The notes under the pieces are model-generated. The model had not been told where the DNA came from. It ran no database searches and worked only from the letters and a program-made list of their open reading frames with translations. This document shows positions 53,073 through 64,000 of a stretch of 64,000 nucleotides of DNA, one piece after another. How positions within the stretch are numbered: the stretch's first letter is position 1; each line of letters starts with the position of its first letter. The stretch spans positions 1,426,001 to 1,490,000 of the forward strand of contig NZ_CP036299.1 of NCBI RefSeq assembly GCF_007752345.1, written 5' to 3'. This stretch comes from Planctopirus ephydatiae. Its GTDB lineage: Bacteria > Planctomycetota > Planctomycetia > Planctomycetales > Planctomycetaceae. A program made the position numbers and the translations under genes.

Positions 53073-53276
53073 GCGACTGGAATCATGCGGACTGCTGGTA
53101 TCGATGATGGAGGGGTTAACCCTTCAGATTCAGTGGATTGAACTGGGCTCTGCTGAGTTGCAAAATTTCATGGCTGCTGTCATGATGCCTGCTTCGCGCA
53201 GAATAGCCGTTTCTGGCTGGTGATCTATCTGGCTGGTAAAGAGTGTTTTGCGATCAATATGTCGGGAGGAGTCGTC

Positions 53277-53891
53277 ATGGCGGTAGATGGGAAGGCGACA
53301 GAAGGAGTCGCTGGGGGTGCTTCCTCCAGTAGCTCAGAGGTTGCTTCGACCGAGAACGCCATGCACTGGTACGTTTTGAAGATTACGAGCAATCGTGAGA
53401 AATCAATTCGAGACAATCTCCTCAGGCGAATTCGGCAGGAAGGCCTCGAACAGTTTTTTGGTGAGATTCTGATTCCCACTGAAAAGGTCGTTGAGAATAA
53501 GAACGGTAAGAAGAAAGTTGTCGAGCACAAACTGTACCCTGGGTACCTCATGGTTCAGATGATTCTGAATGATGACACCTGGTACATTGTGAGGACGACT
53601 GGTGGTGTGGGTGATTTCACCGGTTCTGCCGGTAAGCCGACACCGATGCAGGATCACGAGATTGCTCGTATGCTGCAAAAGCAGGAACAGAAGCAGGAAT
53701 CTGCTGCTCCTGCGATGAAAATTGAGTTCGCTGTGGGTGATATTGTGAAAATCAAGGAAGGGACCTTCGAAGGTTTTGAAGGACCGATTGATTCGATTGA
53801 CGAAGCGAACGGTAAGATTAACGTGCTGGTGGAAATTTTTGGACGGTCAACACCCGTTGAACTGGAGTACTGGCAGGCTGAAAGGCCCTAG
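53277..53891 (+). CDS. nusG: Transcription termination/antitermination factor NusG
   Basis: 204 residues from the ATG at 53277, which has GGAGGAG at good spacing; the frame is open upstream to 53220 without support. A ~30-residue Gly/Ser-rich N-terminal extension precedes the NGN domain ([44 protein letters not shown]). The KOW domain is [19 protein letters not shown] and then [18 protein letters not shown]. NusG binds RNA polymerase and links it to Rho or ribosomes. Followed by rplK after 67 bp. Confidence 0.95.
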
Positions 53892-53958
53892 TTTCCGCTG
53901 CTGGTTGTTAACTCGCTCCAGGTAATAGATCTGCAATCCTTGTTGAAGCTGAATAGAT

Positions 53959-54393
53959 ATGGCCAAGAAAGAAGCGAAGATTAAGGCTCAGGTGAAGGTC
54001 CAGATCCCTGGGGGGAAGGCCACGCCTGCTCCTCCCGTGGGTACTGCACTCGGGCCTCACGGTGTGAATCTTGGTCAGTTCGTGACTCAGTTCAATGATC
54101 GCACCAAAGACCTGAACGGGATGATCGTTCCGGTTGTGATTACCATTTTTGAAGATCGTACCTTCAAGTTTGAATTGAAGAGCCCGCCAGCCTCAGTGCT
54201 GCTGAAGCAGGCTGCGGCCATTGCCAAGGGTGCCAGTAAGCATCGCTCCGAAAAGGTCGGTTCGGTAACGAAGGCTCAGTTGGCCGAGATCGCCAAGACA
54301 AAGATGGCCGACTTGAATGCCTCCAGTCTGGATGCTGCAGTCCGGATTATTGCCGGTACTGCTCGCAGTGTGGGTCTGGAAGTTCTGGATTAG
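53959..54393 (+). CDS. rplK: Ribosomal protein uL11
   Basis: 144 residues, normal length. N-terminal [20 protein letters not shown], then [20 protein letters not shown] and the C-terminal rRNA-binding domain with [20 protein letters not shown] and [11 protein letters not shown]. It binds the GTPase-associated region of 23S rRNA. Followed by rplA after 64 bp. The start has only a weak binding site. Confidence 0.97.
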
Positions 54394-54457
54394 TTTGTGT
54401 CTCTTTCGCGTTCGACTCAGTGGCGGTTTGCGACTGGGGAGCGATTAAGGATGAATG

Positions 54458-55165
54458 ATGGCGACTGTTTCTAAGCGAATGAAGCATCTCGGCGAAATCG
54501 CCGGCAAAATTGGTGTGGTTGATCTTCCCGCCGCTGTGACATCTCTCAAGGGGATGGAGTCGAAGTTGCCCAAGGGTGTGAAGCCCTGCAAGTTTGACCA
54601 GACAGTCACCATCTCTATTCGCCTTGGTGTGGATCCTCGGCAGGCGGATCAGATTGTCCGCGGTTCGATCGTTTTCCCTCACGGAATTGGTAAATCGAAG
54701 CGAGTGCTGGTCTTCGCTCAGGGTGACAACGTTAAGATTGCTCAGGATGCTGGTGCTGAGTTTGTGGGTGGCAAAGAACTGGCCGACAAAATCAAAGAAG
54801 GCTGGGTCGACTTCGACGTCGCCATTGCCACGCCCGATATGATGGGTGTCGTCGGTCCCCTCGGTCGAGTCCTTGGTCCTCGCGGCTTGATGCCCTCTCC
54901 CAGAGCGGGGACAGTGACGGCTGACGTGGCAGCTGCTGTTAAAGAATACCGTGCTGGTAAAGTCGAGTTCCGCGTCGATGATGGCGGCAACGTCCATTGC
55001 GTGGTTGGCAAAATGAGCTTCGGCGAGCAGCAGCTTATTGAAAATGTGGAAGCGTTTTTGAAGTACATTCGCTCACTTAAGCCCGCGACCTCCAAGGGCC
55101 AGTACATTCGTAATATTGTCATCGTCGGCAGCATGACTCCGGCCGTCTATGTGACTGCAGTCTAG
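54458..55165 (+). CDS. rplA: Ribosomal protein uL1
   Basis: 235 residues from the ATG at 54458, which has AAGG seven bases upstream; the ATG just before it (54455) is an alternative. Signatures: [74 protein letters not shown]. uL1 forms the L1 stalk of the large subunit and in other bacteria represses its own operon. A 147-bp gap with tandem repeats separates it from rplJ. Confidence 0.97.
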
Positions 55166-55197
55166 TGTGAACAGTGTAATCTGCTTCGTTGGATTGT

Positions 55198-55261
55198 CAG
55201 TGGGATAGACTGCCAGTGACTGGGGTTACCAGTGAATTGGATCACTAGTGAATTGGTGAAA
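55198..55261 (+). repeat. Four tandem 16-bp imperfect repeats in the rplJ leader
   Basis: Four contiguous 16-bp units: 55198-55213, 55214-55229, 55230-55245 and 55246-55261. They begin CAGTGGGA, CAGTGACT, CAGTGAAT and TAGTGAAT; the last two share AGTGAATTGG. They fill the leader between rplA and rplJ, where other bacteria carry the uL10-binding autoregulatory RNA. Whether they fold into such a site is not evident. Confidence 0.65.
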
Positions 55262-55312
55262 CATGTTTGTCATGCAAGTAGTGTTCAATGGTTCGGAGTC
55301 GATTGAGAGATC

Positions 55313-55825
55313 ATGAGTAAAGTTGTCAAAAAAATGATGATCGACGACATCCGCACAGCGGTCGGCGAACATCGTGATTTATTGGTGCTGGATGCTTCCA
55401 AGGTTGATGCGGTCTCCGCCAATAAGTGGCGACTCCTGATGCATTCCAAGAAGATTTCTGTTCTGGGCGTGCGTAACTCAGTTGCCAATGCTGCACTGCG
55501 AGAAGTTGGTATTGATCTGGCGGATTCGCTCAAAGGCCCTTCCACCATTGTGTGGGGTGCTGAAGACGTTGTGGCTTTAGCTCGCGAGATTGTTGACTCC
55601 CTCAAGGATTGCAAGAATCTTGCAGTGAAGGGCGGCACTCTCAGTGGGACTGCTCTTTCAGCTTCTGATGTTGAGAAGCTCAGCAAGAGCCCCGGCCGTA
55701 AAGAGGTGCTGGGTCAGTTGGTGGGTTTGATTCTGTCACCAGGTGCAAACCTGGCTGGTGCTCTTCTGGGTGCTGGTGGCACATTGGCCGGGCAGGTACA
55801 AAGTGTTGCTGAGAAGACTGAATAG
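55313..55825 (+). CDS. rplJ: Ribosomal protein uL10
   Basis: 170 residues. It anchors bL12 dimers to the ribosomal stalk. The N-terminal domain has VVKKMMIDDIRTAVGEH, LLVLDASKVDAV, KISVLGVRNSVANAAL; the Ala/Gly-rich C-terminal part (LSPGANLAGALLGAGGTLAG) ends in a short helix for bL12. A leader with 16-bp tandem repeats precedes it. rplL follows after 148 bp. Confidence 0.96.
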   Translation: MSKVVKKMMIDDIRTAVGEHRDLLVLDASKVDAVSANKWRLLMHSKKISVLGVRNSVANAALREVGIDLADSLKGPSTIVWGAEDVVALAREIVDSLKDCKNLAVKGGTLSGTALSASDVEKLSKSPGRKEVLGQLVGLILSPGANLAGALLGAGGTLAGQVQSVAEKTE

Positions 55826-55973
55826 TTTGGTTGTTTTCTGATCGCCTGTAATAACATGCGATCTTGTTTTTAGAGATTGGTGGCTCGAACTCAGTGCTCT
55901 GGATGCTTCTGCCAGTCGCTGGATTTTGAGTGATTTTTGATAAGTTCGTGCGATCTACGAAAGGGTCGGGCAA

Positions 55974-56366
55974 ATGGCTGATTTTGATTCTGCAACAACT
56001 GAACTGGGCGACAAGATTGTTGCTCTCACTCTCCTCCAGGCGAAGGCTCTGGCCGACTACCTCGAGCAGGTCCACGGCATTAAGCCAGCTGGTGGTGCTG
56101 TCGTAATGGCAGGCCCTGTTGGTGGTGGTGCTGCTGCCGCTCCTGTCGAAGAGAAGACCGAGTTCGATGTAATTCTGACTGGCTTTGGCGATAACAAGCT
56201 GAGCGTCATCAAGGTTGTCCGTACAGCCACTGGCCTCGGTCTCAAGGAAGCCAAGGACCTTGTCGAAGGCGCTCCTAAGCCAGTCAAGACTGGTATCTCG
56301 AAGGAAGATGCCGACAAGCTCAAGAAGGAACTCGAAGCTTCTGGTGGCACTGCTGAAATCAAGTAA
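55974..56366 (+). CDS. rplL: Ribosomal protein bL12
   Basis: 130 residues. An N-terminal dimerisation part ([20 protein letters not shown]), an Ala/Gly/Pro hinge ([16 protein letters not shown]) and the C-terminal factor-binding domain ([49 protein letters not shown]). Followed by a weak hairpin and a 630-bp gap before rpoB. Confidence 0.97.
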
Positions 56367-56404: not shown

Positions 56405-56540
56405 CTGGATGGCGTCTTGCCCACGTGTGACAGTTCTCGTCGGCGGCACAGAAGCGGTCTCCCTCGTTTTGAATGAGCTTCGATCAATTGTCAGCAATCT
56501 GCTGTAGAGATTTGTCGGTGCGACCCTTCGATTGTTTTCG

Positions 56541-56575
56541 AATTGCAGCGATAGCAAACTGCTGTCGCTGCAATT
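56541..56575 (+). promoter_or_regulatory. 16-bp hairpin between rplL and rpoB
   Basis: Arms 56541-56556 (AATTGCAGCGATAGCA) and 56560-56575 (TGCTGTCGCTGCAATT) pair over 16 bp with one wobble and a 3-nt loop AAC. It is followed by TCGTTCTCATTT, only a poor T run. In E. coli an RNase III site and attenuator lie at this junction; a processing site here is an inference. Confidence 0.6.
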
Positions 56576-56998
56576 TCGTTCTCATTTGGTTGGTTCTGCA
56601 TCTCTCCATCCGGGTGTTTCAAGCAGAGTCTTGAATCATCCTCGTGGTTGAGCGACTGAGTGGCCGTGATCGAAATGGCTGCACAGTTGCGATAACAATC
56701 TCGCGCGTTATGCTGACTTGGTGATGAAGCGAACCACTTTCAGGCTCATGATCTCTCGTGCAGAGTCGTCCATGAGTCTGTTGAATGGTTGATTTGAGAA
56801 TTCTCAGGCAGTTCTTTTGCTCACAATAATGAACAGGGTGCTCCCGCGTTGTTTTCGACTTCAATCTGCAGATCACTGGCGTGTTCTGCATCGAATGGGG
56901 CCGGATCTGCGTACATGATGGCATGAAATTGACTCGTGCTGTTTGACATGCCTGTTTTGTATCATGTTGATTGATTTCGTTGTCACAGGAAGCTTCGC

Positions 56999-59900
56999 AT
57001 GCCCAACCCCGCCCAGCGTGTGATTGAGACTCATGAAACTCGCCACTTTGGATCTATTCGTGGTGAGTTTGCCATCTCTGAACTCACACAAATCCAGACA
57101 GCTTCTTACCATCGCTTTCTGCAACTGGAGAGTGAGCCACGTGAGCGAGCCGATGACGGTCTGGAGGCGATTCTTCGTGAAGTCTTCCCCATCGAGAGCT
57201 ACGATCAGAAGTATCGCCTGGAGTACATCAAGTACGAACTCGGTAAGCCTCGCTATACACCACTCGAGTGCCGCCAGCTTCGCTTAACCTACGGACGTCC
57301 TTTCCGGGTCTGGCTGCGGTTGATGAAGGAGCAGCCACAGGAAGAAGAAGTTTATCTGGGTGATTTGCCCATTATGATTGGTGGCGGCGAATTTATCATC
57401 AACGGTTCTGAGCGCGTTGTCGTCAGCCAGTTGCACCGATCTCCCGGTGTCGACTTTGTGATGTCAGCCGAACCGGGTGAAAAGAAGACTTTCTCTTGCC
57501 GTGTCATTCCCGAGCGTGGTAGCTGGATCGAGCTCAATATCGGCAAGCGGGACACTCTGAATGTCCGTATTGATCAGTCAGGCAAGTTCAGTGCGATGAC
57601 CTTCCTGCGGGCGATGGATCCTGCATATGGCCGTACCAAAGATCTGGTCAAGCTGTTCCACAACGTGGTGACATTCAAGGTCAGTGACAGCCACTTCGTC
57701 GAGCATGTTGCTGGCAAGCACGCTGCAGACGATATCGTTTATCCAGCCGGTCACGAGCGGATGGGCGAGATCATCTGCGAAGCCTGTCATGTCATCACGA
57801 AGCCACTGGCTGAAGAGATCAAGGAATCGGGGATCAAGACAGTTGATGTCGCCGAGAAGTCGGATGATCCCATCATCATGGACAGTCTGATTGAAGATTC
57901 GACAGCGAGTCATGAAGACGCGCTGCTCCGCATCTACCAGCGTCTGCGTCCAGGCAATCCACCTCAGTTGGAAAAGGCCATGGAGCTCTTCAAAGAGAAG
58001 TTCTTTGACGTGAATCGATATCGGATTGGTCGCGTGGGTCGTTTCCGCGTGAACCGCAAATTTGATCAGGACGTGCCTGATACCGAGATGACTCTTCGTC
58101 CTGAAGACATCATTAACTCGATCCGGTACGTGATGAAGTTGCGAACGGGTGATGCGACAGCCCATGTCGATGATATCGATAACCTGGGCAATCGCCGCCT
58201 GAGAACCATTGATGAACTCGCACAGGAAGAACTTCGCAAAGGCTTCCTGAAGCTCCGCCGCACCGTTCAGGAGCGAATGAGCCTCAAAGACGTGGAAGAA
58301 ATGTCACCACGCTCTTTGATCAATCCGAAGAGTGTCTCGGCAGCGATTGATTTCTTCTTCGGTCGTGGCGAGCTCTCACAAGTGGTGGATCAGACCAATC
58401 CTCTGGCCACGTTGACTCACGAGCGCAGGCTCAGTGCCCTTGGCCCGGGCGGCTTGAACCGCAAGCGGGCGGGCTTTGAAGTTCGCGATGTGCATATTTC
58501 GCACTATGGCCGCATCTGCCCGATTGAAACACCCGAAGGTACCAACATCGGTCTGATTTCGAGCCTCAGCATTTTTGCGAAGGTCGACGATTACGGTTTC
58601 CTTATCACCCCTTATCGCAAGGTTGTGGATAAAAAGGTGACTGAAGAAATCGTCTGGCTGCGAGCCGACGAAGAGTCGCATGTTTACATCGCCCCGGCTG
58701 ATACGCCGGTGCAGGACGACAGGATGCGCGATGAGCGTGTCATGTGCCGTCACCACAACGACTTCCTCTGGCTGCCCGCTTCTCAGGTGAACTATATCGA
58801 CGTCGCACCTTGCCAGATGGTGGGTGTCTCGGCGGGTTTGATTCCGTTCCTAGAGCACGACGATGCCAACCGCGCCCTGATGGGTTCAAACATGCAGCGG
58901 CAGGGTGTTCCTCTGCTGATTGCCGAACCACCCTTGGTGGGGACAGGCCTGGAAGGTCCGGTCGCTCAGAACAGCGGAATGGTGCTCCGTGCTGAGAAAT
59001 CCGGAAAGGTGACTTACGTTGATGGGGATTGCATCGAGATCGATGGCAAGCGTACTCCACTTCGCAAGTACACAGGCCTCAATGAGCGAACCTGTTTGAA
59101 CCAGACTCCTGTCGTCAGAGTGGGTGATAAGGTCAAGAAGGGTGATATCCTTGTTGACAGTGCCGCTGTGGGTGATGGTGAGTTGGCACTGGGACGAAAC
59201 GTGCTGGTTGCGTTTATGTCCTGGGAAGGTTTCAACTTCGAAGACGCGATCATTCTCTCCGAACGTCTTGTGAAAGAAGACGTGTACACGTCGATTCACA
59301 TTGATGAATTCGATGTCGAAGTTCGCGAAACGAAACTGGGTCGAGAAGAGTTCACTCGCGACATTCCCAACGTGAGCGATAAGGCTCTGCGTCATCTGGA
59401 TGATGACGGCGTGATCCATGTCGGTACACGCGTTGAGCCAGGAGATATTCTGGTGGGTAAGGTTTCGCCCAAAGCCAAGACCGAACTGACACCGGAAGAA
59501 AAGCTCCTGCATGCGATCTTCGGACGGGCCGGCGAAGACGTTAAGAACGAATCGCTGGAAGTCCCCAGTGGTGTGGAAGGGATCGTCATTCATACTGAGA
59601 AATTCTCTCGAAGAATGAGTCTCTCGGAAACCGAACGCAAGAAGTTCGAAACTGACCTGAAGCGTGTGGAAGAGTCTGGAAATGACTTGATTGCCGCTGC
59701 TTTCAAGACCTTCCTCACTCATTTTGAAACAGCTCTGGAAAAGAAACTGCAAGACGACGATGGTCGTGATCTTGGCAAGCTCGATGATGCCAAGTTCCTG
59801 GCCACTTATGCCGAATCGTTCCTGCATCGTTTCGAAACCATGGATCTCCGCAGTCCTCAGAAGAAGGCCGATTGCAAGAAGTCCATCAAGGAGTTCTGGG

Positions 59901-60715
59901 GCCCTGTGGAAGAAGCGATTGATGATCGTGACCGCAAGCTGAACACCATGAAGCGTGGCGATGAGTTGCCTAGCGGTGTGCTGCAGATGGTGAAGGTCTA
60001 TGTCGCTCAGAAACGGCAGATCTCTGTCGGTGACAAGATGGCCGGTCGTCACGGCAACAAGGGGGTGATTTCCAAGGTGCTACCTGTTGAGGATATGCCA
60101 TTCCTCGCCGATGGAACACCGGTCGACATCATTCTCAACCCACTGGGTGTGCCCAGCCGTATGAACGTGGGGCAGATTCTGGAAACTCACCTGGGCTGGG
60201 CTGCAGCCAAGCTGGGCTTCCGGGCCAAATGCCCGGTGTTTGATGGCCCTGCTGAAGAAACCATTCGAGATCTGCTCAAACTGGCAGGTCTTCCAGAAGA
60301 TGGTAAGGCTCAATTGCTGGATGGCCGCACTGGTGAGCCGTTTGAGCAGAAGACGACAGTGGGCTATATTTACATGCTCAAGCTCCACCACCTGGTGGAA
60401 GATAAAGTTCACGCCCGCGCCACGGGTCCTTACTCGCTGATTACTCAGCAGCCGCTGGGTGGTAAGGCACGCTTTGGCGGACAGCGATTCGGTGAGATGG
60501 AAGTGTGGGCTCTGGAAGCCTACGGTGCCGCCTATATTCTGCAGGAATTGCTCACGGTGAAGAGTGACGATGTGGAAGGCCGCACGAAGATCTACGAATC
60601 GATGGTCAAGGGAGAAAACACTCTCGAAGCCGGGACACCTGCCAGCTTTGAAGTGCTCAACAACGAAATTCGTGGTCTTTGCCTGAACATGCAGCTGGAG
60701 AAGAGTCTCACATAG
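56999..60715 (+). CDS. rpoB: RNA polymerase beta subunit
   Basis: 1238 residues; AGGA lies eight bases before the ATG. Core signatures are intact: SGELSQ-like region [101 protein letters not shown]. The rifampicin pocket keeps the residues equal to E. coli Gln513, Asp516, His526 and Ser531 but has Thr where E. coli has Asn518. The lineage region between beta domains is short, hence the length below E. coli's 1342. A strong terminator follows 36 bp after the stop, and rpoC does not follow. Confidence 0.98.
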
Positions 60716-60750
60716 TTCTGCAGCTCATACAGTCCATCTTTGTACAGCGA

Positions 60751-60792
60751 AGCAGGGGGATCGGTGCCTGTCACCGATCCCCCTGCTTTTTT
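60751..60792 (+). terminator. Strong intrinsic terminator after rpoB
   Basis: Perfect 16-bp stem, 60751-60766 and 60772-60787, loop CCTGT, followed by TTTTTT to 60792. It ends the ribosomal-protein/rpoB transcription unit 36 bp after the rpoB stop. No A tract on the other side, so it works on the plus strand only. Confidence 0.92.
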
Positions 60793-60936
60793 GATAGGGC
60801 TGTTTTTAAGGCAGCTTCTGGCAATTCAGCAGGCATTCGGCGGAATGCCCTCTGAGCCCTCAATATCAACACACTACGATCATCGCATGAAAATATGGTC
60901 AATCGTACGTCCAAGCGATCTTCAGCCGGACATTCA

Positions 60937-61662
60937 TCAACGCGATGGTTGGCCAGTTCCCTCCTGGAAGCTGGTCTGCTCAATTGCAGGGACTGCCGTC
61001 TCAACATGTTCAGTCGTTAAAGAGGGAGTAGACTGGTCAGGTTTTCCACCAGCGACTTCTTTGGCCTTTTCGGCAGCATAGAAGACATCAAAGTTTCGAG
61101 CGAAAGCATGCTCGAGGGGTGCGTAGTCGTGGCGCCCAAAAAGAGGCATCTTCGACAGAGCTTCTTCACCTGTTTTTCCACGGAACATCACGTCGTACAT
61201 CGTTAACACGCGGCCCGTCCGGTTGAATCCATGCTGGCAATGGACAATCAGCGGATAGTTTGCAGGATCTTTTAGGATAGCAATATGTGGCGCAATCAGA
61301 GAGCTCGATGGATCATCAATATCCGGAAGTGAAAGTTCAATCAGCTTGGCGCCGGCGGCTTCCACAGCCATGCGCTCCTGTCGTGCGCGATCCTGGCCCA
61401 TTTCTCCCGGGCGGCAAAGATTGAGCACGGTCTTCACCTGATGCTTCTGAACAAGTTCAGCCATCACATCGGCTTCCACCCAGCCGCAGCGAATCACTTT
61501 TCCAGGATCGTGAATCGCCACATGCTTGTAGCGATGATGCTGGCGGTAAACCCAGCCGCTCACACCTATGGCCACGATCATCGCCAGAATCAGAATCCAG
61601 CGAAACCGCAGCCGCGAAGCGGCCGGGGTCGTTTCTGTCAAAGTCGTGTTCTCGTTCGTCAT
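60937..61662 (-). CDS. Membrane-anchored Cys-based protein phosphatase (DSP-like)
   Basis: 241 residues from the ATG at 61662, which has AAGGA eight bases upstream. One membrane helix (WILILAMIVAIGVSGWVY) anchors a dual-specificity/tyrosine phosphatase domain with VKTVLNLCRPGE, an Asp-containing loop (SLPDIDDPS) and the P-loop VHCQHGFNRTGR, a complete HCx5R with Cys142. These fold-types hydrolyse phosphotyrosine or other phosphoesters, and this one probably faces the periplasm given its N-terminal anchor. It lies 134 bp after a GT2 gene on the same strand. Substrate unknown. Confidence 0.82.
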   Translation of the reverse strand: MTNENTTLTETTPAASRLRFRWILILAMIVAIGVSGWVYRQHHRYKHVAIHDPGKVIRCGWVEADVMAELVQKHQVKTVLNLCRPGEMGQDRARQERMAVEAAGAKLIELSLPDIDDPSSSLIAPHIAILKDPANYPLIVHCQHGFNRTGRVLTMYDVMFRGKTGEEALSKMPLFGRHDYAPLEHAFARNFDVFYAAEKAKEVAGGKPDQSTPSLTTEHVETAVPAIEQTSFQEGTGQPSR

Positions 61663-61796
61663 GGAAACATCCTTGTCTGCCGCTGACTGGCCCAAATGAA
61701 AGTCTCAATCCTTGAAGCAGCATATGCTTTTGTGACATACCACCCCGGGAGCCTGTCGAGAAACATTCAGTAACAGGTTCGAGTGGACACCAGCAT

Positions 61797-62801
61797 TTAT
61801 GCGGCCCGGCGTGAGCGAGGATCCAGTAGCGGGGCCGGTGAAATGGCGAGTGAAACTGTCTCAAAATTTGTCGTTTTGCGGACAGCATACGTCTGTACGT
61901 TCTGCACCTGAAAATAGATGCGGGAGCAGAGTTCGCTCAGTAAGCCCAGAAAGACAAACTGAATCGCCGCCAATCCGGAAACAGCACTCAACAACAACAG
62001 GGGGTTGCCAGTCATATCATAGTTATAGGCCAGCTTAAGGCCGATACTTGCGAATGCTGCCAGACCGCTGGTGAACATGGCCATCAATCCCATCATCCCG
62101 AAGAGTTTCATGGGGCTGACGGCGTACTGAATCAGATATTTAACGGTTGCCAGATCCAGCAGCACGCGAGTGACGCGGCCCAGTCCGTACTTCGAGACAC
62201 CAAAACGCCGGGCATGATGCCTGGTAACGACTTCGATGCACCGTGCTCCACGCTGCCTGGCAAGAATGGGAATGAAGCGATGCATCTCGCCATAGAGCTG
62301 TAATTCCTTGGCGATTTCGCTGCGAATGGCTTTGAGTGTGCAACCGAGGTCGTGCACCGGGAAACCAGTCACCTTCCCAATCAGCCAGTTGGCACAAATC
62401 GACGGAAGTTTCCTGTGGAGAACTGCATCCTGCCGGTTCTTACGCCAGCCGTGCACGAGATCGTAACCTTCCTCGATTTTCGCCAGCATCATTGGAATGT
62501 CTTCGGGCTCATTCTGCAGGTCGCCATCGATGGTGACGATGACGTCACCAGTGGCTGCCTGAATTCCCGCCTGCATCGCAGCAGTTTGGCCAAAATTCTT
62601 GCGAAACTCGATCAGTTTCACTCGGGAATCTGCCCCAGCAATTTGATCCATGACTTCGGTAGAACCATCGGTGGAACCATCGTTGATGAGGATTAACTCG
62701 CAACTGTGTTGCAGAGGTTCCATCACCCGCATGATGGCGGCATGCAAAAGTGGAAGGTTTTCGAGTTCGTTATAGATTGGAACGACAATCGAAACGTGCA
62801 T
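61797..62801 (-). CDS. GT2 glycosyltransferase with two C-terminal membrane helices (DPM1/GtrB-like)
   Basis: 334 residues from MHVSIVVPIYNE at 62801, with AGGCG eight bases upstream; an ATG nine codons earlier is an alternative. GT-A features: SIVVPIYNELENL, LINDGSTDGS, VTIDGDLQNEPEDI (the DxD region) and the loop VHDLGCTLKAI. Two membrane helices follow (MMGLMAMFTSGLAAFASIGL and LLLLSAVSGLAAIQFVFLGLL). Such enzymes load undecaprenyl phosphate with a sugar. This could feed an ArnT-like enzyme as at 44675, though the genes are 15 kb apart. Confidence 0.87.
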   Translation of the reverse strand: MHVSIVVPIYNELENLPLLHAAIMRVMEPLQHSCELILINDGSTDGSTEVMDQIAGADSRVKLIEFRKNFGQTAAMQAGIQAATGDVIVTIDGDLQNEPEDIPMMLAKIEEGYDLVHGWRKNRQDAVLHRKLPSICANWLIGKVTGFPVHDLGCTLKAIRSEIAKELQLYGEMHRFIPILARQRGARCIEVVTRHHARRFGVSKYGLGRVTRVLLDLATVKYLIQYAVSPMKLFGMMGLMAMFTSGLAAFASIGLKLAYNYDMTGNPLLLLSAVSGLAAIQFVFLGLLSELCSRIYFQVQNVQTYAVRKTTNFETVSLAISPAPLLDPRSRRAA

Positions 62802-63042
62802 ATTAAATCGCCTGTTGCCGACATCCATAGGGCATTTGCATCGCTCGGAATGACATCCATGTCATCGATGCAGGCATTGCCAGTGAATTGGTGAGTGGAT
62901 TGGTTGCTGAGTCGTAAGTCTTGAGTGAGCAGGTTTCCTCGTGAGATTTCCAGACAGAGTTTTGCAGAAGTCGAAGAAAACGTCCAGACCGGCTCCTCGG
63001 TTGAAATGGGTGGTTTCGGCAGTTTGGGAGGAAGTTGCTGAA

Positions 63043-64000
63043 TTACAAAATCGGGGCGAACATGCGAGCCCAGTTTTCCTGGAGCTTCTGCCAGCGGGAA
63101 CGTTTGAACCACAGGCTTTTCTCAATTGGCTCTGCCTGGCGGACATCGATTTCAAACTGCGAGTTGAGCTGCTCGGCAATGCCTTTGTCGTACATTGCGA
63201 CAGCGACTTCAAAATTCAGAAAGACGCTGCGCGAATCGAAATTGGGGCTCCCCACCAGAGAGTACTCGCCGTCCAGAGTCAACGTTTTCGAGTGCAGATA
63301 ACCTCGGTTGTATTCCCAGATCTCAGCACCCGCTCGCAGCAGCGGGCTGTAACTCGACCGGCCCGCCATACGGGTATACCAGTAACCCTTGGCACCAGAG
63401 AGCAGTAATCGCACTTTCACACCCCGCACAGCGGCACACTCCAGGGCCACGACCAGGGCGTTTGTGGGAACAAAGTATCCTGTGGTAATTGTGATGTGAT
63501 GCCGGGCTTCATTGATGGCCGCAAAGAACAGCGCCTGGAATACGCTATCTTCCATATGCGGCCCACCCGAAACCACCTGCGCCTCGACATGACCATGTGT
63601 TTCGGGTCGGGGAAAATCGTCTTGCCACGAGATCTCGCGACCAGTGGCACAATGCCAGTCTTCCGCAAAGATCATCTGCAATTGCAGCACCGAGGGGCCC
63701 ACCAGTCGCAGGTGTGTATCACTCCAGTGGCCAAAATGCGGGACACGACTCAAATATTCGTCACCCACATTCATTCCACCTGTGAAACCGATTTCCCCAT
63801 CGACAATGATGATCTTGCGATGATTACGCAGGTTCAGCGACCACGATTCGAGCCAGCCTCGTCCCGGAACAAACGCCGAAATTTCAATCCCCGCTTCCCG
63901 CATTGGTGCAATAAAGCGGCGGGACAATCTCAATGAACCGATCGAGTCATAAAGAAATCGGACTTTGACACCAGTTCTGGCCTTTTCGATGAGCAGGTCT
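63043..64000 (-). CDS. Cardiolipin synthase-like phospholipase D (partial)
   Basis: The C-terminal ~319 residues are in the window; the gene continues past the right edge. Two HKD motifs are present: NHRKIIIVDGEIGFTGG and LHSKTLTLDGEYSLVGSPNFD. Between them is the typical HITITTGYFVPT and VRGVKVRLLLSG. The reading extends to base 64000 with KARTGVKVRFLYDSIGS, which matches bacterial cardiolipin synthases. These membrane enzymes join two phosphatidylglycerols. The N-terminal membrane helices are outside the window. No promoter can be placed. Confidence 0.88.
   Translation of the reverse strand, partial: DLLIEKARTGVKVRFLYDSIGSLRLSRRFIAPMREAGIEISAFVPGRGWLESWSLNLRNHRKIIIVDGEIGFTGGMNVGDEYLSRVPHFGHWSDTHLRLVGPSVLQLQMIFAEDWHCATGREISWQDDFPRPETHGHVEAQVVSGGPHMEDSVFQALFFAAINEARHHITITTGYFVPTNALVVALECAAVRGVKVRLLLSGAKGYWYTRMAGRSSYSPLLRAGAEIWEYNRGYLHSKTLTLDGEYSLVGSPNFDSRSVFLNFEVAVAMYDKGIAEQLNSQFEIDVRQAEPIEKSLWFKRSRWQKLQENWARMFAPIL

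Follow-up and report, generated by a model that had tools for sequence, protein, structure and literature searches.

The stretch of DNA analysed here, referred to as the window, comprises 64,000 nucleotides (positions 1426001-1490000) of the genome of Planctopirus ephydatiae, which is assembled as one contig of 5,214,061 bp. An intact open reading frame on the plus strand of the window (56999-60715) codes for the beta subunit of RNA polymerase, RpoB (1238 aa), and carries the only PF00562 match of the genome. The full-length identity of this rpoB to its counterparts in other genera of the family is 73-83%. Translations of the open reading frames on the same strand place nusG (53220-53891), rplK, rplA, rplJ and rplL upstream of it (together 53220-56366). 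Thus rpoB is the last gene of a nusG-rplK-rplA-rplJ-rplL-rpoB cluster whose upstream half is still attached, and the order rplK-rplA-rplJ upstream of rpoB is kept as well in relatives in which rpoB and rpoC adjoin. The gap between rplL and rpoB amounts to 632 bp and contains a long hairpin (56540-56576) with a T-rich stretch behind it, which may be an attenuator; in E. coli an attenuator is known between the same two genes.

Downstream of rpoB, hairpin search and folding revealed a predicted intrinsic terminator on the plus strand (60750-60792). Its hairpin (60750-60788) is formed by the arms AAGCAGGGGGATCGGTG and CACCGATCCCCCTGCTT, which make 17 perfect pairs around the 5-nt loop CCTGT, and the run of six T occupies 60787-60792, its first two T lying within the 3' arm. 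The earlier note had described a perfect 16-bp stem with six T placed 36 bp after rpoB; the perfect stem and the six T hold, while the distance from the stop codon to the start of the hairpin is 34 bp and the stem measures 17 bp. Among the perfect hairpins of the whole window this one is the longest and strongest, and folding gave -38.5 kcal/mol with z = -7.1, none of 200 shuffled sequences folding as well (z -7.4 in a separate run). The element thus shows the G+C-rich stem and the T run shortly past a stop codon that characterize intrinsic terminators.

The feature was followed through a genus sample of four genomes: P. ephydatiae (G000), a genome taken as P. limnophila DSM 3776 (G001; chromosome of 5,423,075 bp and one further contig), G002, and G003, which stands farther off within the genus (RpoB identity 94-95% over the parts compared) and has a fragmented assembly that is 88% complete. 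A hairpin after rpoB is present in all four (z -4.4 to -7.1). In G001 and G002 it is homologous to that of P. ephydatiae with one mismatch in the stem, and in G003 it lies at a similar distance from rpoB, forms 16 pairs by folding and is unrelated in sequence. Replacement of the hairpin sequence with retention of the feature is the pattern expected from selection for termination. Only 1 of 91 gaps between adjacent rpoB and rpoC genes holds a terminator-like hairpin under a perfect-stem rule, a strict rule that P. ephydatiae and G003 pass and that misses G001 and G002, with their one mismatch, and Capnocytophaga. These observations suggest that transcription of rpoB terminates at the 60750-60792 hairpin.

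The next gene after the terminator lies on the minus strand, as the earlier note stated. It codes for a DSP/PTPase-like phosphatase (60937-61695; PF22741 and PF22785 over the cut-off), is convergent to rpoB and is conserved in G001 and G002; in G003 it does not stand beside rpoB. The claim that rpoC is absent from the window was borne out, the sole match in the genome falling at 1528300, beyond the window end at 1490000. When rpoC was located in the genome, as had been proposed, it was found on the plus strand at 1528267 (GTG)-1532550, 41,551 bp downstream of the rpoB stop codon on the same strand, and rpsL, rpsG, fusA and the S10 cluster come after it. The supercluster is therefore cut precisely between rpoB and rpoC: nusG and rplKAJL remain with rpoB, and rpsL-rpsG-fusA-S10 with rpoC, and other genera of the family have both of these flanking arrangements. 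The locus resembles the canonical rpoBC (beta) operon in the order and direction of the genes as far as rpoB, in the str/S10 genes after rpoC and in the full-length orthologues. In contrast to the adjacent, co-oriented and terminator-free genes of that operon, separated by 70-250 bp in most family relatives, the Planctopirus genes stand about 42 kb apart with the 17-bp hairpin and its six T between them.

The earlier reading that rpoB ends its own transcription unit, with rpoC lying elsewhere, is supported, and the sequence speaks against co-transcription: with a terminator kept after rpoB in all four genomes and a conserved leader before rpoC (described below), separate transcription of the two genes is likely. 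Were the hairpin an attenuator or stabiliser instead, a very long transcript could still get to rpoC, since hairpins may be leaky and the two genes share a strand. Such a transcript would nevertheless have to cross about 41.5 kb holding many genes on both strands, beginning with five genes after rpoB that lie on the opposite strand, and we regard it as extremely improbable.

The position of rpoC could also be an artefact of assembly, rpoC truly adjoining rpoB, and the two fragmented assemblies among the four genus genomes could not by their own evidence rule such an error out. Yet the chromosome-level assembly of a different species, G001, shows the same gene order across the block, with about 42.1 kb between rpoB and rpoC. 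In G002 the two genes are on different contigs: the one with rpoB extends for 13.2 kb into the same block and lacks rpoC there, and the one with rpoC starts within the opposite end of that block, so that both flanks lead into the same block genes. In G003, again with the genes on different contigs, the 2.96 kb after rpoB lack rpoC; prs comes first there, then HlyD-like and ABC genes, every one of them on the opposite strand. The gene upstream of rpoC in G003 is a different one and divergent. With the chromosome-level assemblies of two species in agreement, an assembly error is hardly credible. The split is shared by all four genomes of the genus sample: it spans about 42 kb in P. ephydatiae and G001, and the contig evidence shows it in G002 and G003.

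Linkage of rpoB and rpoC is among the most stable of bacterial gene pairs, and the common explanation is that the two large subunits are needed in equal amounts. Our survey of 158 Planctomycetota genomes, 142 of them informative, revealed rpoB and rpoC less than 3 kb apart on one strand in 139 of the 142, the exceptions being P. ephydatiae and G001 (about 42 kb) and one further genome, G030. Where both genes share a contig and a strand (n = 141) the median distance between the two domains is 384 bp, and 139 of these genomes are under 3 kb. The closest sister genus, represented by G004 (7,276,092 bp, taken as Planctoellipticum variicoloris SH412), has a gap of 89 bp. The split is consequently not a planctomycete arrangement, which the earlier note had left room for, and is confined in the survey to Planctopirus and one unrelated genome. 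Two other genomes came under consideration: G102, in which the genes are on different contigs, was excluded as uninformative, and G039 was rejected as a split since a contig end falls inside its rpoB and the end of rpoB adjoins rpoC on L111. In a broader control of 80 loci from across bacteria, a single one, that of Capnocytophaga sputigena, lacked rpoC within 10 kb of rpoB.

The two parallels differ from Planctopirus in kind. Capnocytophaga sputigena NCTC11653 (L079) likewise has no rpoC in the 10 kb after rpoB and a strong hairpin with a T run after rpoB; however, it belongs to the Bacteroidota, represents an unrelated event and carries rpoC on a different, longer contig. G030 (L020/L021), of the same class and of family f2, also has unlinked rpoB and rpoC, but on opposite strands; on a circular contig the distance between them across coordinate 1 would be about 0.54 Mb. 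No terminator-like hairpin was found there under the perfect-stem rule. The arrangement in G030 is as an inversion around coordinate 1 would produce. Helicobacter and Wolbachia, in which rpoB and rpoC are naturally fused, depart from the two-cistron operon as well, though in the opposite direction, towards one polypeptide. A literature search covering papers outside subscription yielded no account of a split rpoB/rpoC in planctomycetes or Capnocytophaga. The split is rare and lineage-specific, with at least two independent parallels among the genomes analysed (G030 and Capnocytophaga), and in Planctopirus it is a lineage-specific rearrangement and not a new kind of system.

The DNA interposed between rpoB and rpoC (genome 1486716-1528266, about 41.5 kb, of which 60716-64000 lies in the window) carries genes on both strands. 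Besides the phosphatase, it codes for a glycosyltransferase, a PLD-type enzyme, an ATPase, gyrB, prs, an alanine-racemase-like protein, an ECF sigma factor, a response regulator, a UPF0102 protein, a type I PKS and a type III PKS, and a CsrA-like gene was noted as a weak match under the cut-off. The block also includes an ABC-type exporter with FtsX/MacB-like, ATPase and HlyD-like parts, resembling DevBCA. The type I PKS, a PKS-associated-looking protein, the type III PKS and the HlyD/ABC exporter stand in a row (genome 1512181-1527961), an arrangement that calls to mind the heterocyst-glycolipid type of PKS with DevBCA export.

Insertion of a mobile element between rpoB and rpoC would account for a break placed exactly between the two genes with both old flanks intact, and a tRNA-Thr, a feature in line with such an origin, lies within the block. 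This tRNA is nonetheless about 10 kb inside and not at an end; a scan of the block proteins other than three larger ones (genome 1499169, 1500383 and 1519127) turned up neither integrase nor transposase; and the GC content of the block (0.535) is like that of its flanks (0.529 and 0.525), giving no sign of foreign composition. The core genes gyrB and prs are equally out of keeping with a mobile element. While gyrB of P. ephydatiae (genome 1492521-1494995; L002 12521-14995) sits inside the block, away from dnaA, it is found about 2-3 kb from coordinate 1 in G016, G021 and G033; in the first two of these, which represent other genera and have it at about 3 kb, a dnaA-like gene adjoins it. In the sister-genus genome G004, gyrB, the PLD gene and the exporter occupy three separate sites (1.62, 6.06 and 6.15 Mb). 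Owing to this scatter in G004 and to the position of gyrB elsewhere in other genera, the block is best described as ordinary chromosomal genes pieced together, an assortment that has been reshuffled in G003. A mobile element, which was rejected as the leading explanation in view of the flank-like GC and the result of the protein scan, is an unlikely source of the split.

P. ephydatiae has two DnaA paralogues (genome 49-519 and 967051-967512), one in a long frame (about 860 codons) and one in a short frame, and two DnaA matches are present as well in most other complete genomes tested.

Sequence conservation immediately before rpoC points to a promoter of its own. The 101 bases upstream of the GTG are identical at 100 positions between P. 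ephydatiae and G001 and at 79 between P. ephydatiae and G003; farther upstream, 50-bp bins drop to 76-90% between the first pair, and homology to G003 stops. This leader occurs once per genome, solely before rpoC. Candidate hexamers TTGCAG-N18-TAGTCT, with TG before the -10, match the E. coli sigma-70 consensus weakly, at only 3 of 6 positions each, and G003 keeps the T, A and T of the -10 hexamer (TAGTCT). Conserved between P. ephydatiae and G003 are also an inverted repeat, GCGCA-N3-TGCGC, and an AAGGAG near the start codon. The divergent upstream gene of G003 cannot serve rpoC, which makes a promoter in the leader the simplest reading, and we infer that the rpoC promoter lies within about 100 bp upstream of the GTG.

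In P. ephydatiae no terminator was found in the 305-bp gap between the HlyD-like gene and rpoC, so that read-through into rpoC may add to the output of this putative promoter. Were rpoC driven mainly by read-through from the upstream DevBCA-like exporter operon, which shares its strand and is separated from it by that short gap, the supply of beta-prime would be coupled to the exporter operon. G003, with its different and divergent upstream gene, has nevertheless retained the leader of about 100 bp, and exporter-driven expression as the main source is improbable in our judgement.

Taken as a whole, an ancestral split with a terminator after rpoB, a separate promoter for rpoC and two transcription units is, in our assessment, a highly probable explanation of the locus. 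In the Planctopirus ancestor, a chromosomal rearrangement would have put ordinary DNA between rpoB and rpoC, breaking the nusG-rplKAJL-rpoB-rpoC-rpsL-rpsG-fusA-S10 supercluster exactly at that junction. From then on a strong Rho-independent terminator, which the members of the genus have retained or replaced, would close the rpoB unit, and rpoC would be transcribed from its promoter in the roughly 100 bp before the GTG. The beta and beta-prime subunits would accordingly each have their own transcription unit, both on the same strand with about 42 kb between them.

Their stoichiometry would most likely be achieved through matched promoter strength along with the ordinary assembly and turnover of excess subunit. 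The earlier note held that separate control of the two subunits would need another balance mechanism; independent promoters with ordinary assembly and turnover would suffice, and sequence analysis revealed no dedicated device for balancing beta and beta-prime. Cross-talk evolved after the split to match beta-prime to beta, for example by autoregulation at the rpoC leader of about 100 nt with its GCGCA-N3-TGCGC repeat, seems doubtful at best. A culturable genus without the linkage, set against a nearest sister genus that has it, offers a natural experiment on operon linkage and RNA polymerase assembly.

Smaller departures from the usual spacing were observed in other genomes. A minus-strand open reading frame of 367 aa lies between rpoB and rpoC in G038 (L113 8968-10071), where the two genes may be uncoupled too, within about 1.8 kb. 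An extra plus-strand open reading frame occupies the 1750-bp gap of G010 (L016 9638-11488), and G156, a genome of the same genus as G010, has a similar spacing of the rpoB and rpoC domains.
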